A stretch of DNA of 20,170 nucleotides from a virus. The position numbers and the translations under genes are program-made. Under the pieces are notes generated by a model. It had not been told where the DNA came from, ran no database searches, and saw nothing but the letters and a program-made list of their open reading frames with translations. Positions 3,009-14,980 of this stretch are shown here, piece after piece. The stretch's first letter is position 1. Each line of letters starts with the position of its first letter. Location: positions 1 through 20,170 of IMG/VR virus record IMGVR_UViG_3300031539_000406; one strand, written 5' to 3'.

Positions 3009-4208
3009 CTAGAAACTCCACTTGTTGAGCGCGGCGTACTCCCCATTCGAGCCACGGGCAAAGACCGTGAAGCGGTCCTGGGTATTTCCCACATTGGACG
3101 ACCAGAGTCCTTGCTGCGTCCCCACCTGCAAGACCGCGTCGTTGATGGTGGACGTGGCCCCGACCTGAGCGTTGTTCAGATAGAGCATGAATGTCGTGCC
3201 ATCGGGGATGACGCGGATTGCACCCGCCCCCAGCGCCACGACTGCCGAGATCACGTCCGTCTCTGCCGCCGCCACGCGCTTGACCAACTTGCAGTTCGTC
3301 CCGTCGTGGATGGCACGGATGTAGTTATCGGCGTCCACGTAGCGCAACACCACGCCGACCTCGTTGCCCGCACGCGTCAGCGTCGCGCCGGTGATGGCGT
3401 TCACCGTTCCCGTGTTCACCGTGGCGATGGCGACGCCGCCTACCAATGCCGATGCCTGTGCTGCAGTGGTGGCCACTAGCGTCGTGCCAACGCGGTTATT
3501 CCATACCCGCGCCGTTACGATCTGATTGTCCGGCCCCCATATCTCACTGCTGCCCAGCGCGCCGTCTGCCCGCGCGAAGATGTCGTAGGCCAAGGGCATC
3601 GGCAGCCACAGGGCGTCGGGGACGCGGATGGCATCTACCGTGCCGAGTGCCGTTCGCCAACCCACGCCCACATAGACCGTTGCATCAGCCATCGTGCTAT
3701 CGATCCACAGCAGTGTCCACGCTGCAAATGTGCCGCCCCTGATGAAATAGTAAGCTCCTGTAGTACGAAGGACGATGGCTAGGTCATAGTCAGTTGACAG
3801 GACTGCCCCTGCCACCGTAACGCTGCCGGGATATACAAGAAGGTCGGTGATTTGCTGATAGAAGGCGTTTCGCACTGGCACACCGTCAACACCATCATCA
3901 AATCCGAAATACAAGCGGCTGGCTCCATTGAAACGTCTGGCAATTCCTACCATTCCAGCGGCGCGGGCTAAAGCATCCAGAAAGTAACGCGGATCACCGA
4001 TGCCAGTGGGGAGAGCACACGTTATCAGCCCGCCACCAACAGACAATACATTCCCTGTATCCGTCACCGTCCGCGTTCCCGGCCCAGGCGTGGCGGGCGT
4101 CCCGTTGACCGCGCCGGCGGCACGGGTGTCAGAGAACTCGTCACGCAAGAGCCAACGGATGACCCCGCGCCGGAACAGCACCGCCAGATTTCGGATCATT
4201 CGCCGCAT
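3009..4208 (-). CDS. Virion surface protein with two concanavalin-like (LamG-type) domains
   Basis: A 399-residue protein. The start at 4208 is chosen because AAGGAAGAG precedes it. An upstream in-frame extension would overlap the preceding gene by about 90 bases. After a basic leader (MRRMIRNLAVLFRRG), a first beta-rich domain begins at DEFSD (residue 23) and includes AVNGT-x-A, GPGTRTVTDT and YYFIRGGTFAAWTLLWID (153-170). A second domain begins at IFARADGALG (about 210) and has VVLRYVDADNYIRAIHD and FMLYLNNAQVG, the pattern of LamG-like jelly rolls that bind sugars or stabilise fibres. It probably decorates the head or forms a fibre, though the ligand is unknown. The part encoded at about 3740-4060 is AT-richer than the rest, as if the gene were a mosaic. 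Confidence 0.65.
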   Translation of the reverse strand: MRRMIRNLAVLFRRGVIRWLLRDEFSDTRAAGAVNGTPATPGPGTRTVTDTGNVLSVGGGLITCALPTGIGDPRYFLDALARAAGMVGIARRFNGASRLYFGFDDGVDGVPVRNAFYQQITDLLVYPGSVTVAGAVLSTDYDLAIVLRTTGAYYFIRGGTFAAWTLLWIDSTMADATVYVGVGWRTALGTVDAIRVPDALWLPMPLAYDIFARADGALGSSEIWGPDNQIVTARVWNNRVGTTLVATTAAQASALVGGVAIATVNTGTVNAITGATLTRAGNEVGVVLRYVDADNYIRAIHDGTNCKLVKRVAAAETDVISAVVALGAGAIRVIPDGTTFMLYLNNAQVGATSTINDAVLQVGTQQGLWSSNVGNTQDRFTVFARGSNGEYAALNKWSF

Positions 4209-4210
4209 GG

Positions 4211-4675
4211 CTACTCTTCCTTGGCCACGCCGACCTTGAGCAGCAGCCTGCCGCTGGGATAGGTGACTTGGCCGGTCCGGCACACCGCCGCCACCCACAG
4301 CGACGTTTGCCCATCTGCAGGTCGCACCTTGCGCGCGTAGAACTCGGGCTGCGCGAGCCGCTGTGCGCCGAGGTCGATATAGTCAGCCGCCCTCACCAAC
4401 ACGCAGCATAGGATCTCCTGTGCCTGCGCGTTCGTGATCGCGATCGGCGCGTTGACCACGCCCAGAACACCGGGGTGGGTGCGGAAGACCAGCAGATCGA
4501 TATCCCCGCCCTGGTCGTCGTAGTCGAGCAAGGTCAGGCTGACGAGGTAGGACGGGTGATTCTGCACGCACACGCGTTCCACCTCCGTCGCCAGGGACAT
4601 CAGGTCGCCGGCAGCGTAGGCCGCCGTGTCGATGGGCAGGATGACTTCTGCAACGTCGTCTACTCGTAGTGCCAT
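4211..4675 (-). CDS. Conserved phage structural protein, function unknown
   Basis: A 154-residue protein starting at ATG 4675, with AGGAGAC 6 bases upstream. It begins MALRVDDVAEVILPIDTAAY followed by AAGDLMSL. The core is LTLLDYDDQGGDIDLLVFRTHPG, then ITNAQAQEILCCVLVRAADYIDLG. It ends with a strand-rich segment and SGRLLLKVGVAKE. The mix of an I-D-x-x-x-Y-x-x-GDL block and a D-I-D-L-x-x-F strand recurs in small beta-sandwich proteins of phage structural operons, as far as can be judged from memory. No enzyme motif is seen. It sits between two probable surface proteins, so a virion accessory role is likely. Confidence 0.6.
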   Translation of the reverse strand: MALRVDDVAEVILPIDTAAYAAGDLMSLATEVERVCVQNHPSYLVSLTLLDYDDQGGDIDLLVFRTHPGVLGVVNAPIAITNAQAQEILCCVLVRAADYIDLGAQRLAQPEFYARKVRPADGQTSLWVAAVCRTGQVTYPSGRLLLKVGVAKEE

Positions 4676-10448: not shown

Positions 10449-10942
10449 AACCCCCTGAACGCCTCGCGCACGATGGTCGCAATGTGCGCGTCCACGATGC
10501 GCTTGATCGTGCCGTCGCTCAGCGCCCTATCTGCAATCTGTTGGTCCGTCTGCCACCCCGTCGCCTTGTGCTGTTCGGTCTGGTACTGACTGCTCACCAC
10601 GTAGAGCGAATAAGTCGCCCGGTTGCCCAGCGTGGCGCTCTCTGCCTGGCGCGAGATGCCCCAGCTTGCACCCGAGCGTTGGCTCATCGGATCGCTGCCA
10701 CGGCTGTACTTGAGCGGCAGGCCGGCCTTGCGCCGCATCCAATGATAGAATGCCTGCTGCTTGCGACTGGCCCACTTGACGGGCGAATGGACGCCATAGG
10801 GGCGCACCTTGAACATCTCCTTGAGTGCAACGGCAACAAAGTACGTGGCCCGCCCCTTGAAGCGCAATAGCGCAGGGCCGTGCAGCTCGTTGATGGCCCG
10901 CTGTAGCTTGTCTAGACCGGTCGTGTCAATGCCTTCAGACAT
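10445..10942 (-). CDS. HK97 gp10-like minor structural protein
   Basis: A 165-residue protein starting at ATG 10942, overlapping the stop of the MuF-like gene by 8 bases, with GGTGGA upstream. It begins with GLDKLQRAINELHGPALLRFKGRA, a helix typical of gp10-like neck proteins. It then has a basic segment PVKWASRKQQAFYHWMRRKAG and a SQRSGASWGISRQAE block, followed by YSLYVVSSQYQTEQHKATGW. In HK97-like phages proteins of this type join the head-tail interface or tail completion. Here the gene lies before the protease rather than after the connector, an unusual but not unknown placement. The call rests on pattern and neighbours. Confidence 0.65.
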   Translation of the reverse strand: MSEGIDTTGLDKLQRAINELHGPALLRFKGRATYFVAVALKEMFKVRPYGVHSPVKWASRKQQAFYHWMRRKAGLPLKYSRGSDPMSQRSGASWGISRQAESATLGNRATYSLYVVSSQYQTEQHKATGWQTDQQIADRALSDGTIKRIVDAHIATIVREAFRGL

Positions 10943-11861
10943 TAGGTTCCACCCACAATCCCTGCTCTCTCAAGTATGCCTCTCGCTCTGCTTGGCGCGT
11001 CCCGTAGTCGGCCTGCAGCGCCTCCTGCGACCGGAATGATAGCTGCTCCTCGCATCTGCAACGTACATGAAGTGGTGGTCCACTCGGATACTGTGCCGCC
11101 CACACACTTTCCGGCGCGCCCTCAAGAGGACCGCACAGGTCACACACGAGCTCGTCCGCCATGGTCCTAAAAATCCTCGTCACCTCCAGCTCTGGCACTT
11201 CCTGTTGGATCAGCCTCTGCAGCTCGTTCGTCGATTCGCTATATGCCCGCGTGACTTCTGTCTCGGCAATCATCTCCGCGCGCACCGGGCCGAATGCCGG
11301 CTCGATCAGCGATTCGATGTCCCCGATCGTCATCCCCGGCGTCTGCACGAAGGATGTCATCGCCTCTTGCAACTGGCGGCGCGTCGTGTCGGTCAGCCCG
11401 CGCACGAGATCATAGGTATACTCGCGCGCCCAGCGCAGCGCCTCGGTGTTGATGATCGCCGGGTCGAAGCCAATGCCCACCTCCACACTCAGCCGCAGGG
11501 CGTTGTCCACCATCAGCGCCGATAGCTCGGGCTGCACAGCGGCGCGCAGCTCGTCGGCCATCCCCTCATAATCGAATGGCTCGTCCTGTTCAATCGCCCG
11601 CGCTGCCTGCGCCTTGCGCTCCTTTAGGATGGCCTGCACCTTGCGCTTGATGCGCCGCTCCGCTGCCATCCGCACGTCGAGGGGCGTCTGCTTGAGGAAT
11701 GAGAATGCCGCCTCTGGCCCCACGGCCCCCTGCGCCGCCACGACCTCGGCGTTCAGCCAGTCGGGTATGATGTCGCTGTTAAAGTGCGTTGTCTTGCCGC
11801 GCTTCTCGGCCTTGCTTCTCCATCGGCCTAGCTCGGCAAAGAGATCCGATGGTGGCCCCAT
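10935..11861 (-). CDS. MuF-like (SPP1 gp7-type) head morphogenesis protein
   Basis: A 308-residue protein. The N-terminal segment DLFAELGRWRSKAEKRG with FNSDIIPDWL (6-35) is a linker often found at a portal C-terminus or a MuF N-terminus. A long helical region follows. Then comes the MuF core, with MTIGDIESLIEPAFGPVRAEMIAETEVTRAYSES (177-210) and a metal-binding-like C-terminus LVCDLCGPLEG (Cys 240, 243) and HVRCRC (His 265, Cys 268, 270). Such proteins are minor head components that act with the portal. The ATG at 11861 overlaps portal by 34 bases, has no ribosome binding site, and sits inside a stable hairpin. Translation must therefore be coupled to portal or arise by -1 frameshifting. Confidence 0.8.
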   Translation of the reverse strand: MGPPSDLFAELGRWRSKAEKRGKTTHFNSDIIPDWLNAEVVAAQGAVGPEAAFSFLKQTPLDVRMAAERRIKRKVQAILKERKAQAARAIEQDEPFDYEGMADELRAAVQPELSALMVDNALRLSVEVGIGFDPAIINTEALRWAREYTYDLVRGLTDTTRRQLQEAMTSFVQTPGMTIGDIESLIEPAFGPVRAEMIAETEVTRAYSESTNELQRLIQQEVPELEVTRIFRTMADELVCDLCGPLEGAPESVWAAQYPSGPPLHVRCRCEEQLSFRSQEALQADYGTRQAEREAYLREQGLWVEPNV

Positions 11862-13165
11862 TCCGGGGCCAGCGCTTTTGGGCGGGTGCGTGCATCCACC
11901 CGTTCGTTCGTCGGCTGCTGTGTGCCCGGTCCCTCTTGTGGCGGCGGACCCCCGAATGGCTGCGGTGCAACGCGCTCCTCTGGCTTGAATGTCTTGTCAA
12001 GTGGCGGCAGATTGGCTGCGCGACCTACCGAATCGATCCACGACCGCACCTCGTCCGTCGACATCACGTTCGCCTGATAGGCCGGCAGGGCCACGCCGTT
12101 GATGGTGAAGGCCATGCTCTCTGCCTTGGCGATCTCTGCCTTCTGGACCGCCTCGATCTCATTGGTCTTGAACAGCACCCGCAGGCCCAGCTCGTTGAAC
12201 AACTGGTCGTTGAGTACCGGCTGTATGCGCGTCCGGACCCAGGGAATGAGCGATTGCGTCCACAACTCATACTGCAGCGCATCCCGCTCGGCTCTGTTTG
12301 TCTTTGCTTCGGCCAGCCCGGGCGGGATGTTGTGCGCGGCAAGGATCTGCTCGCGCTTGGTGCTCTCCAGTTGCGGCATGGCCAGGTCTTTGACCGGCTG
12401 CCCGATGACAGTGGGCACTAGGCCACGTTCGAGTACCGTTGTCTTGAAGGCCCGTCCCACGCCTTTGAGGATCTTTTCCCATCGTGACTGGATGCGCTCC
12501 TTTTCGACTAGCGGGACCGCACCCTCTGTGGTCAGGAATACCGCCGGTATGGCCCCGTTCTCAAAGAACGAAGCCGCCCACATATTGGCATTCTTGATCA
12601 GCGCCGCCGCCACCTGCCCTACCGCACCCGCGCCGATGCCGGGGCCGATATCGGTGGTCGGGCTGAATGTCCTGAAATACACGATCTGCTCGGCAGAGTA
12701 GTCGCGCTCCTTAATGCCCACCTTCTGGCGGAATACAGTCGGCCCGTCGTCGTCATACTTGAGTACCCGCATGGTGTTGGCGTTGAGCACCTGCAACTTC
12801 GCCAACTGCTGCGATCGCCGCCCGAGCCGCTTGAACACGTAGGCCGCCGCCTTGAGCGACAACCACGCCTCCACGTCCCACAGCAGCGGTGCCAGGTCGA
12901 TCGGCCACTCCTCTTCGTTGTCCTCGTCCTCGTCGCCTTCGGGCAGGGTCAGGCTGTACACGCCATAAGGGATTTGCGAAACATTGTTGGCCCGCAGGTT
13001 GACGCACCAGAACGTCCAGGCGACGGCGGCGTATAGGTCTTGCGGCTTGGTCCCATCGCCCGCGTCAATGGCCCAGTCCATGAACTCGTCCATGTCGCCG
13101 AGCGTTAGTGCCTTGGCCCCGTACACCCCACCCGTGATTGCCGCTTTGTATGCTGTACGTCTCAT
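11828..13165 (-). CDS. Portal protein, HK97 family
   Basis: A 445-residue protein that forms the dodecameric DNA entry ring and binds terminase and connector. ATG 13165 overlaps the terminase stop (ATGA) and is preferred over an in-frame GTG at 13183. Family features include DLYAAVAWTFWCVNLRANNVSQIPYGVY near the N-terminus. A MRVLKYDDDGPTVFRQKVGIKERDYSAEQIVYFRTFSP region and a GAGAVGQVAAALIKNANMWAASFFENGAIPAVFL helix follow. Then come NIPPGLAEAKTNRAERDALQYELWTQSLIPW and a C-terminal linker rich in Pro. The last 15 codons of this frame follow a slippery CCCAAAA site and end at a stop overlapping the MuF-like gene, so part of the product may be a longer fusion. Confidence 0.88.
   Translation of the reverse strand: MRRTAYKAAITGGVYGAKALTLGDMDEFMDWAIDAGDGTKPQDLYAAVAWTFWCVNLRANNVSQIPYGVYSLTLPEGDEDEDNEEEWPIDLAPLLWDVEAWLSLKAAAYVFKRLGRRSQQLAKLQVLNANTMRVLKYDDDGPTVFRQKVGIKERDYSAEQIVYFRTFSPTTDIGPGIGAGAVGQVAAALIKNANMWAASFFENGAIPAVFLTTEGAVPLVEKERIQSRWEKILKGVGRAFKTTVLERGLVPTVIGQPVKDLAMPQLESTKREQILAAHNIPPGLAEAKTNRAERDALQYELWTQSLIPWVRTRIQPVLNDQLFNELGLRVLFKTNEIEAVQKAEIAKAESMAFTINGVALPAYQANVMSTDEVRSWIDSVGRAANLPPLDKTFKPEERVAPQPFGGPPPQEGPGTQQPTNERVDARTRPKALAPEWGHHRISLPS
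11853..11882 (-). promoter_or_regulatory. Candidate -1 programmed frameshift site at the portal/MuF junction
   Basis: In the portal frame the heptamer reads C CCA AAA (11882-11876), an X XXY YYZ slippery pattern. After a 4-base spacer comes a perfect 7-bp hairpin TGGCCCC-GGAAT-GGGGCCA (11871-11865 with 11859-11853). A -1 slip leads exactly into the frame of the MuF-like gene. The MuF ATG lies at the loop/stem border. Confidence 0.5.
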
Positions 13166-14601
13166 TGTAGTAACGTCATCCACGCACCATAGGAGCCATA
13201 ATGCGCCAGGACCACCGCATCGCCACAGTCAGGCGACCGGCCCAAACGCGCCTTGATTTCGTCTTTGCTTTCGATCTGGATGCCGTTCGCGCTCAGCTTC
13301 CAGTGTGGGGCCACTAGGTCGGCCAACAACTCAGGATCGTCGGGAAGCGCCAAGTTGTCGCCCTTCACCGGGTCCAGCGCCTCGCGCAGCCCCCAGTACG
13401 CCTCGGCGCGCACGTTGCGCATGGACAACATCCCCGAGCGGTCGCGTGCATGCGTTGCTTCTGCAAAGTTCACGCCCATGACGTTGAGATGTTTCCTGTC
13501 CTCGGACTCGTAGTAGGCCAGCGAGTCATAGGCCGATGAACCAACGCCGATGACATCCACGTTGATCGTCGCGTCTTGCTCACCCTCAAGGGCCATAAGG
13601 ACTTGCACCTTGACCGATTCCCCATCTGGTGTCTGCCGGCCATCAACCTTGACCAATGGTGCGAACCAGTTGTCATATCGCTTGGCAATGGCCGTCTGGT
13701 CGTTGCCCCCTCTTGCCACGTCTACGCCGACTGCCGAAAGTGGCGTGTCTGGTCGTTCTGTTTCCTTGCCTCGCCGCTGTGCCTGTCGTACCCATTCGGT
13801 AGGGATCACCTGCCACGGGTCGTCTTGCACGCCGATGGTAAAGTCACCATAGAGAAGCTGCGTTCGCAGCGGCTCCGGCAGGTTGTTCAAGACCGTGCCG
13901 TATTCCGTCTCGCTCAGGTACGGGTTGTCACCCAGCTTTGCCGGAATGAATGTCCGCGACCTGGGCGTGATTTCCTGCCCGTTGTGCTCGAAGGACTCAG
14001 GGCCATCTACCTCGATGTTCTTGCCGTCCACGATGGCGAACCACCGCAGCTCCCCCGGCGTAGCCGGGTTGGGATGATGCTCGCTCAGCCACGGCGCCCA
14101 GTACTCAATGACCCATTGCCCGTCTGCGTGCATCGGCGGGTTGCCCGCACAGATCACCCGACAACGCTGGCCTTCCTCAACCGTTCGCAGCCACCCAATC
14201 AGGAAGCGATACTGTGACTCCAAGAACTCGGGCAACTCGTCAAAGCCAATAAAGTCGTGTGGCCGGCCCTGGTACTTGTGCTTGTCCTGGTCATACTGGC
14301 AGGCACCGAACTCCAAGGCCCGTTTGCCGGGTAGGTCACGCCACGCATGCTCAATCCCGTTGTACCGCCCCTTCGTGCCGATGATCTCCCGGCTTCGCTC
14401 GATAAGGCCCGCCGGCCCGGATAGCTGGGTCAGCTCCCGCCGAAAGATGATTGAATGCCCGTGTGCTGTGGCGGCCAAGCCGAGCAGCAGATCGCTCTTG
14501 CCTCCACCTGCCGCGCCGCCGTAATAGACCTCATCCGCTCGACTCAGGGCCGCCATCCATTGCGGCGTATTCTGCGGCATCCACAGCGCCTTGCCCTCCA
14601 T
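13162..14601 (-). CDS. terL: Terminase large subunit
   Basis: The ATP-driven packaging motor and nuclease, 479 residues from ATG 14601. The Walker A motif is YGGAAGGGKSD (27-37 counted from this start) and Walker B with the catalytic acid is FIGFDELPEF (DE at 121-122). The nuclease domain begins VGVDVARGGNDQTAI (first Asp 294), continues INVDVIGVGSSAYDSLAYY (Asp 349) and closes with a CGDAVVLA-type acidic segment. NTPQW before Walker A is typical. The frame stays open upstream to a TTG at 14685, which would give 507 residues and a 155-base overlap with the small subunit. Even from 14601 the two genes overlap by 71 bases. ATG 14580 is a third option. The function is very sure, the start less so. 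Confidence 0.93.
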   Translation of the reverse strand: MEGKALWMPQNTPQWMAALSRADEVYYGGAAGGGKSDLLLGLAATAHGHSIIFRRELTQLSGPAGLIERSREIIGTKGRYNGIEHAWRDLPGKRALEFGACQYDQDKHKYQGRPHDFIGFDELPEFLESQYRFLIGWLRTVEEGQRCRVICAGNPPMHADGQWVIEYWAPWLSEHHPNPATPGELRWFAIVDGKNIEVDGPESFEHNGQEITPRSRTFIPAKLGDNPYLSETEYGTVLNNLPEPLRTQLLYGDFTIGVQDDPWQVIPTEWVRQAQRRGKETERPDTPLSAVGVDVARGGNDQTAIAKRYDNWFAPLVKVDGRQTPDGESVKVQVLMALEGEQDATINVDVIGVGSSAYDSLAYYESEDRKHLNVMGVNFAEATHARDRSGMLSMRNVRAEAYWGLREALDPVKGDNLALPDDPELLADLVAPHWKLSANGIQIESKDEIKARLGRSPDCGDAVVLAHYGSYGAWMTLLQ

Positions 14602-14980
14602 CACCTCGTTCAGCCAACAGACCTCCGAGGGCTCTAGCAAGTGTGTCCAGGGCTCGACTATGGTACTCAGCTCGAGTGTCGTCAACCTCTATTGCCTTCC
14701 CGCCTGGCCCGCTGATCTCGCTGCGCTGCACCGGCTTCCCCATCAGGTAGTCGCTCAACCACTGGCGGGCGGTAGAATCGCCGGCCTTGGCGCGGGCCAC
14801 TGCCGTGTTCACAATGGTGGCCCAGTCCTTCAGCGTGACGTGGCGAGAGAGCGCAGTGAGGTACTTCTCCTCTGTGCTGCGCTTGGGACGACCGTTCGGG
14901 TTGCCCGAGTGTCCCTTGGCGAATTGTCCGTTGTCCTTCCTTGGAGTCACTGATCCTATCCTGCTATCAGGGCGTGCCAT
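14531..14980 (-). CDS. terS: Putative terminase small subunit (DUF5681-type N-terminus)
   Basis: A 149-residue protein from ATG 14980 (MARPDSRIG). It carries NGQFAKGHSGNPNGRPKRS near the N-terminus, the G-x-F-x-x-GxSGNPxGRPK pattern of the DUF5681 domain seen in DNA-packaging proteins. A helical middle (LTALSRHVTLKDWATIVNTAVARAKAGD, then ARQWLSDYLMGKPVQ) follows, and an Ala/Gly-rich tail overlaps terL. It would recognise phage DNA and pass it to the large subunit. ATG 14980 overlaps the upstream gene by 14 bases and lacks a clear ribosome binding site. ATG 14995 and GTG 14950 (with AGGA upstream) are alternatives. Confidence 0.78.
   Translation of the reverse strand: MARPDSRIGSVTPRKDNGQFAKGHSGNPNGRPKRSTEEKYLTALSRHVTLKDWATIVNTAVARAKAGDSTARQWLSDYLMGKPVQRSEISGPGGKAIEVDDTRAEYHSRALDTLARALGGLLAERGDGGQGAVDAAEYAAMDGGPESSG

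Follow-up and report, generated by a model that had tools for sequence, protein, structure and literature searches.

A putative programmed -1 frameshift at a conserved slippery heptamer between portal and MuF-like phage genes

Genes and signals at the portal-MuF junction

The window, that is, the whole stretch of DNA that was analysed, comprises the 20,170 bases of an IMG/VR virus record and has a G+C content of about 61%. The head genes and the signals at the junction between the portal gene and the MuF-like frame are the following:

13162-14685, minus strand: terminase gene
11828-13165, minus strand: zero-frame portal gene, of 445 aa when counted from the ATG at 13165; from the sequence, Phage_portal PF04860 (E 1.1e-30) and the portal profiles phrog_2662/phrog_12
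11876-11882, minus strand: slippery heptamer C CCA AAA, read in the phase of the portal codons; conserved in relatives, with CCCTTTT replacing CCCAAAA in L037/L018
10935-11882, minus strand: -1 frame segment, a PK-SAGPG linker followed by a MuF-like head morphogenesis domain, from profile matches
11872-11875, minus strand: spacer GCGC, 4 nt, variable among relatives
11853-11871, minus strand: putative stimulator hairpin TGGCCCC-GGAAT-GGGGCCA; arms conserved, loop variable
11859-11861, minus strand: ATG at which ORF finding places the start of the MuF ORF; ATG, GTG, TTG or CTG in relatives, with no Shine-Dalgarno
10935-11861, minus strand: MuF-like ORF, 308 aa from 11861
11828-11830, minus strand: zero-frame stop TAG; it follows the heptamer at a distance of 17 codons in the out-of-frame relatives, or 18 in L032
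7503-8855, minus strand: HK97-type capsid gene

The portal ORF covers 11828-13183 and its first start is a GTG at 13183; the ATG at 13165, which shares an ATGA overlap with the terminase stop, is most likely the portal start. The MuF frame matched the head morphogenesis profile phrog_3517 (E 1.7e-16) and the C-terminal part of phrog_2662, a portal-MuF fusion profile (E 2.1e-12), and its score against Phage_Mu_F PF04233 was 29.5 bits, slightly below the cut-off of 29.6. The portal and MuF frames of the window matched positions 55-401 and 492-712 of phrog_2662, which is 717 long, and the two domains would be present in a single chain only if the frameshift happens.

A preliminary description of this DNA had proposed that the portal is fused to the MuF-like protein by a programmed -1 frameshift. 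Direct reading of the sequence confirmed the heptamer at 11882-11876, the 4-nt spacer and the 7-bp hairpin at 11871-11853 (stem TGGCCCC 11871-11865, loop GGAAT 11864-11860, GGGGCCA 11859-11853) on which that proposal was based, as well as the position of the MuF ORF in the -1 frame of the portal and the length calculated for the fusion (743 residues: 430 of the portal from the ATG at 13165, 5 in SAGPG and 308 of MuF). The minus-strand portal codons around the heptamer are CGC CCA AAA GCG. Before the heptamer, the MuF frame stays open over 38 codons, none of which is a start codon. The coding strand of the window has a single CCCAAAA, and no other X XXY YYZ sequence is present in the portal/MuF overlap. 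Given the encoded residues and the codon usage of the gene, the chance of this heptamer is 0.009, and in the window sequence by itself it is only suggestive. Elsewhere in the window, an in-phase GGGAAAT was noticed at 3090, close to the end of the ORF 3009-4298 and with a -1 extension of 174 codons; it is probably incidental, since the next gene has an ordinary ATG directly after the stop.

No matches to isolated phages were obtained in a DNA-level search with the window, and tblastn with the portal returned nothing beyond portals about 27% identical. In Javan424, the one such match examined, the portal is followed by a Clp-protease-like gene and not by MuF. The sole tblastn match of the MuF protein was Halobacterium phage ChaoS9, in which the portal and head assembly genes are separate. 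Only one portal match, of 27%, was detected among the GTDB genomes (a Lokiarchaeota MAG contig), and therefore no host was assigned.

Conservation of the junction among relatives

Relatives were collected from IMG/VR by protein-guided and pattern searches, and all of them are metagenomic contigs. About nine lineages were represented, with 14 distinct junctions at which the two ORFs are out of frame: the window cluster (window, L003, L005, L007, L009, L010), L016/L033, L018/L037, L032, L034, L035/L036, L038, L051 and L075. The pattern search of IMG/VR gave 42 hits in total; among these, the ones that did not match portal/MuF lacked a fitting ORF pair and were taken as chance. The MuF ORF overlapped the portal in the -1 frame at 14 of the 14 junctions, and an in-phase X XXY YYZ sequence was present inside the ORF overlap at all 14. 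Eight lineages have CCCAAAA as the heptamer and the remaining one has CCCTTTT.

This conservation was observed between sequences whose fourfold sites in the portal gene upstream of the junction were 0.30-0.57 identical between diverged lineages, values that place the synonymous sites of the portal close to saturation. The base preceding CCA was C in each lineage, whatever the residue encoded (Arg, Gly, Ala, Pro or Val). The proline of the heptamer was CCA, which accounts for 10-29% of Pro codons, and the lysine was AAA, which accounts for 6-43% of Lys codons; L037 has CCT TTT at these two codons. The probability of the heptamer in each lineage, given the residues and its own codon usage, was 0.004-0.04, values that are not for simple multiplication as the lineages are partly dependent. 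Across the relatives, the presence of the heptamer is far beyond chance. Moreover, where residues are conserved, the same codon was used in a fraction of 0.85 at the junction, compared with 0.50 on average upstream of it. Part of the identity downstream of the heptamer is due to dual coding; the heptamer itself precedes the MuF start and would therefore be single-coding if MuF were initiated independently.

Several lineages were especially informative. In L018/L037 the heptamer is C CCT TTT, with four bases altered together and the zero-frame Lys changed to Phe. Sharma and colleagues (PMC4066793) selected 18 heptamers that are underrepresented and shift-prone in E. coli, and C_CCA_AAA and C_CCU_UUU both belong to this set, so that the swap keeps slipperiness by a measure based on E. 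coli, from which the tRNAs of the phages' own hosts may differ. L090 is nested within the clade in the portal tree, and its portal ORF continues in frame into a MuF-like N-terminal segment, with a separate gene next. The residues P-K-A-L are retained there but spelled CCG AAG, which indicates that the slippery spelling was lost once the frameshift was not needed; no matching hairpin was visible at the L090 junction. The codon-usage null, the same-codon fraction and the loss in L090 together indicate that the signal is conserved beyond coding need. A portal with only the MuF-like N-terminal segment in frame was seen in both L090 (1546-3916) and L094 (2393-4780), and the genes after the portal in L090 (phrog_24776) and in L094 are separate and have a similar Cys-rich C-terminus.

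In L092, a sister lineage of the clade in the portal tree, portal and MuF form one in-frame ORF of 714 aa, which matches phrog_2662 at 40-705 of 717. L092 retains ATC CCA AAA and TGGCCCC-CAGT-GGGGCCA. A -1 slip in L092 would stop about 30 codons on and give a short portal, so that the role of the signal would be reversed. This in-frame fusion is found in one contig and may be an error or a young fusion. Other differences were observed in the MuF ORFs themselves. That of the close relative L009 (2923-5040) is interrupted in frame, after ...DELVC, by an intein-like insert about 400 residues long, with Intein_splicing/Hint matches just under the cut-off. Those of L038 (5281-6942) and L051 (396-2084) have a C-terminal extension of roughly 250 residues, into which the phrog_6577 match of L038 reaches; the extension is perhaps a cargo domain.

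The variation in the alignment was mostly in the spacer and the loop, and the heptamer and inner stem were nearly fixed. The spacer was 3-6 nt across the relatives, close to the lower limit of usual spacer lengths. Stem pairing was retained in 92.3% of the pair cells of the alignment, versus at most 59.3% for slid pairings. The hairpin of the window was not stronger in energy than shuffled sequence (z -0.14), and the energies of the relatives, taken sequence by sequence, were also no better than those of shuffles. No compensatory covariation was found in the stem among the aligned relatives, the core CCCC/GGGG being invariant, and shorter stems were present in L037, L038 and L032. The hairpin is considered a probable, though putative, frameshift stimulator. 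No consistent upstream Shine-Dalgarno-like stimulator was seen by eye across the relatives.

At the position of the zero-frame stop the -1 frame encodes Leu-X, and at every junction the codons chosen produce a stop in the zero frame: CTG AGC, giving TGA, where the residues are Leu-Ser, and CTA G.., giving TAG, where they are Leu-Gly, Leu-Ala or Leu-Val. CTA accounts for 9-28% of Leu codons in the lineages of the latter type. As the stop position is held while the -1 residue varies, a short portal appears to be needed besides the fusion. The comparison of relatives shows that the heptamer and its phase, the arms of the hairpin and the zero-frame stop are under selection, and that fused homologues exist. 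Heptamer, phase and hairpin are the features whose persistence in related phages despite synonymous drift would, according to the preliminary description, support a frameshift, and all of them are conserved in relatives near synonymous saturation.

Access of ribosomes to the MuF frame

The MuF frame could be reached in other ways. Under translational coupling or internal initiation, ribosomes would stop at 11828 and re-initiate at the ATG at 11861, or start internally, free MuF would be made and the heptamer would be incidental. An NTG is present at the same spot in all of the out-of-frame relatives, and ATGA-type overlaps exist in other gene pairs of the genome (terminase/portal), as this explanation would have it. 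Against it, no usable Shine-Dalgarno was found before the MuF start in the window or in any relative, the best pairing being about -2.6 kcal/mol with zero spacing for most of them, whereas many genes elsewhere in the window do have one, with a pairing of -8 to -14 for the major capsid gene and others. The ATG of the window is buried in the hairpin, the codon at its position is CTG in L016/L033 and GTG or TTG in other relatives, and the same T is retained in L092, where it is not part of a start. Coupling also fails to predict the conservation of the heptamer, the CCCTTTT swap or the loss of the heptamer in the in-frame L090, and it is considered quite improbable. The earlier observation that the MuF ATG lacks a ribosome binding site and lies in the hairpin therefore held, and it extends to all relatives as regards the Shine-Dalgarno. 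Coupling, put forward at that time as the main rival, is weakened by the drifting start codon (CTG included) and the missing Shine-Dalgarno, although some independent initiation may occur.

A variant of the frameshift explanation combines both routes, with a minority fusion made by frameshifting and a certain amount of free MuF produced by weak initiation at the NTG. The retention of the NTG alongside the frameshift signal in all of the out-of-frame relatives is in its favor; the sequestered start without a Shine-Dalgarno speaks against it, and the T-G-G-G-G is accounted for by the stem and the zero-frame Trp-Gly. This variant is rather unlikely, less so than coupling. Finally, the two frames might result from a sequencing or assembly error (a base lost in the A run) or from a recent disabling mutation of a once-fused gene, as the single ORFs of the phrog_2662 relatives and of L092 might suggest. 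More than 12 contigs, which come from several metagenomes and have diverged in their flanks, show the same -1 arrangement, the A run comprises only four bases, a CCCTTTT lineage exists and the zero-frame stop is conserved, and this explanation is given almost no weight. The homopolymer error that the preliminary description had raised is excluded by these many independent assemblies. The programmed -1 frameshift that it had proposed as a candidate is supported by the conservation of the heptamer, the CCCTTTT swap and the loss of slippery codons in L090.

Proposed mechanism and comparison with known systems

It is therefore very probable, as judged from the comparative sequence data, that a programmed -1 ribosomal frameshift on the portal mRNA yields the portal and a minority portal-MuF fusion. 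We infer the slipping itself, its efficiency, its stimulation by the hairpin, the role in the virion and the stoichiometry. The majority of ribosomes would read on and stop 17 codons past the heptamer, giving the portal. A fraction, helped by the downstream GC hairpin, would slip at C CCA AAA, with tRNA-Pro re-pairing on CCC and tRNA-Lys on AAA. By the established rules of decoding, a tRNA-Pro from CCA can re-pair with CCC and a tRNA-Lys from AAA with AAA, so that pairing is kept by both after the slip. The slipped ribosomes would enter the MuF frame and make the 743-aa portal-MuF fusion. The likely purpose would be to place a few MuF domains in the portal ring, facing the capsid interior, in a ratio fixed by translation. 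More broadly, recoding at the portal-MuF junction may be recurrent in tailed phages, with a polarity that can flip and with a mixed portal ring carrying a set number of MuF-bearing subunits as its purpose, although the chances of this wider proposal are put at somewhat under even.

Additionally, runs of nine A were observed at other portal-MuF junctions, with more distant MuF domains. An invariant CTCAAAAAAAAACTCTA (A9) lies at the junction of L022-L024 and L026-L031, and the junction sequence in this more distant MuF group is GCTCAAAAAAAAACTCTA. In this group L022/L024 have MuF in frame; in L023 and the L026/L027 type it is in the -1 frame, with no start codon nearby; L028-L031 have the same A9 run with the L027-type flank. 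Examples of the site are L023:3771 and L022:2026. In L017 (2720-4881) the portal reading frame continues into the N-terminal segment of MuF before a -1 break at CTAAAAAAAAATC (A9), for which slippage and homopolymer error are both possible. In the two Brevundimonas phages that are related to L022, the annotation gives a single fused gene, and no A9 run is present. Runs of nine A are known transcriptional slippage sites (PMC5009743), and the A9 run at these junctions is a candidate slippage site.

No report of programmed frameshifting in portal/MuF genes was found in a literature search that covered mainly freely accessible papers. The unverified predictions of PRFect include MuF-like genes, paired with VIP2 toxins (PMC10274946). 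MuF-type loading into the capsid has so far been understood only as portal binding (SPP1 gp6/gp7). If true, the mechanism proposed here would provide a covalent, ratio-set route for MuF, would imply an asymmetric or mixed portal ring and would extend programmed frameshifting to the portal gene. It would also be a warning that a portal ORF and a MuF ORF annotated side by side may together encode a single recoded protein.

A -1 frameshift in the tail assembly chaperones gpG/gpGT of lambda and relatives was reportedly described by Xu, Hendrix and Duda in 2004. The lambda system (reviewed in PMC5009743) resembles the present one in being a phage late gene with an X XXY YYZ sequence near the end of the first ORF and a signal conserved across phages, and in making a short product and a minority C-terminally extended one at a fixed ratio, as is predicted here. 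Unlike the portal, a virion component with MuF as its partner, the lambda tail chaperones are absent from the virion. Virion structural proteins in a frameshift-extended form, as predicted here, are the major head and tail proteins of Lactobacillus phage A2 and the Listeria PSA, A118 and A500 and T3/T7 coat proteins (PMC5009743). These extensions are decoration domains, often Ig-like, on many capsid or tail subunits, whereas here MuF would be carried by the portal, which by analogy would be a single 12-mer ring. Frameshifting in dnaX yields the long or the short product, tau or gamma, and both polarities exist (PMC5009743), as in the window and L092. It shares with our case a slippery heptamer and a downstream stem-loop; by contrast, it is a cellular gene, and that of E. 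coli adds an upstream Shine-Dalgarno-like stimulator.

The portal-MuF gene fusions that the preliminary description had mentioned in other phages do exist, in phrog_2662 and in Microbacterium phages (clusters EA3/EA5/EA8/EB, PMC7302621). They have the same order, portal and then MuF, in one polypeptide, but MuF is on all of their portal subunits, whereas here it is predicted only on those made by slipping. In SPP1 the MuF protein gp7 enters the procapsid in few copies by binding to the portal gp6 (PMC6316719). As proposed here, MuF reaches the capsid interior through the portal and in few copies, with the difference that gp7 is made separately and bound non-covalently instead of being fused.
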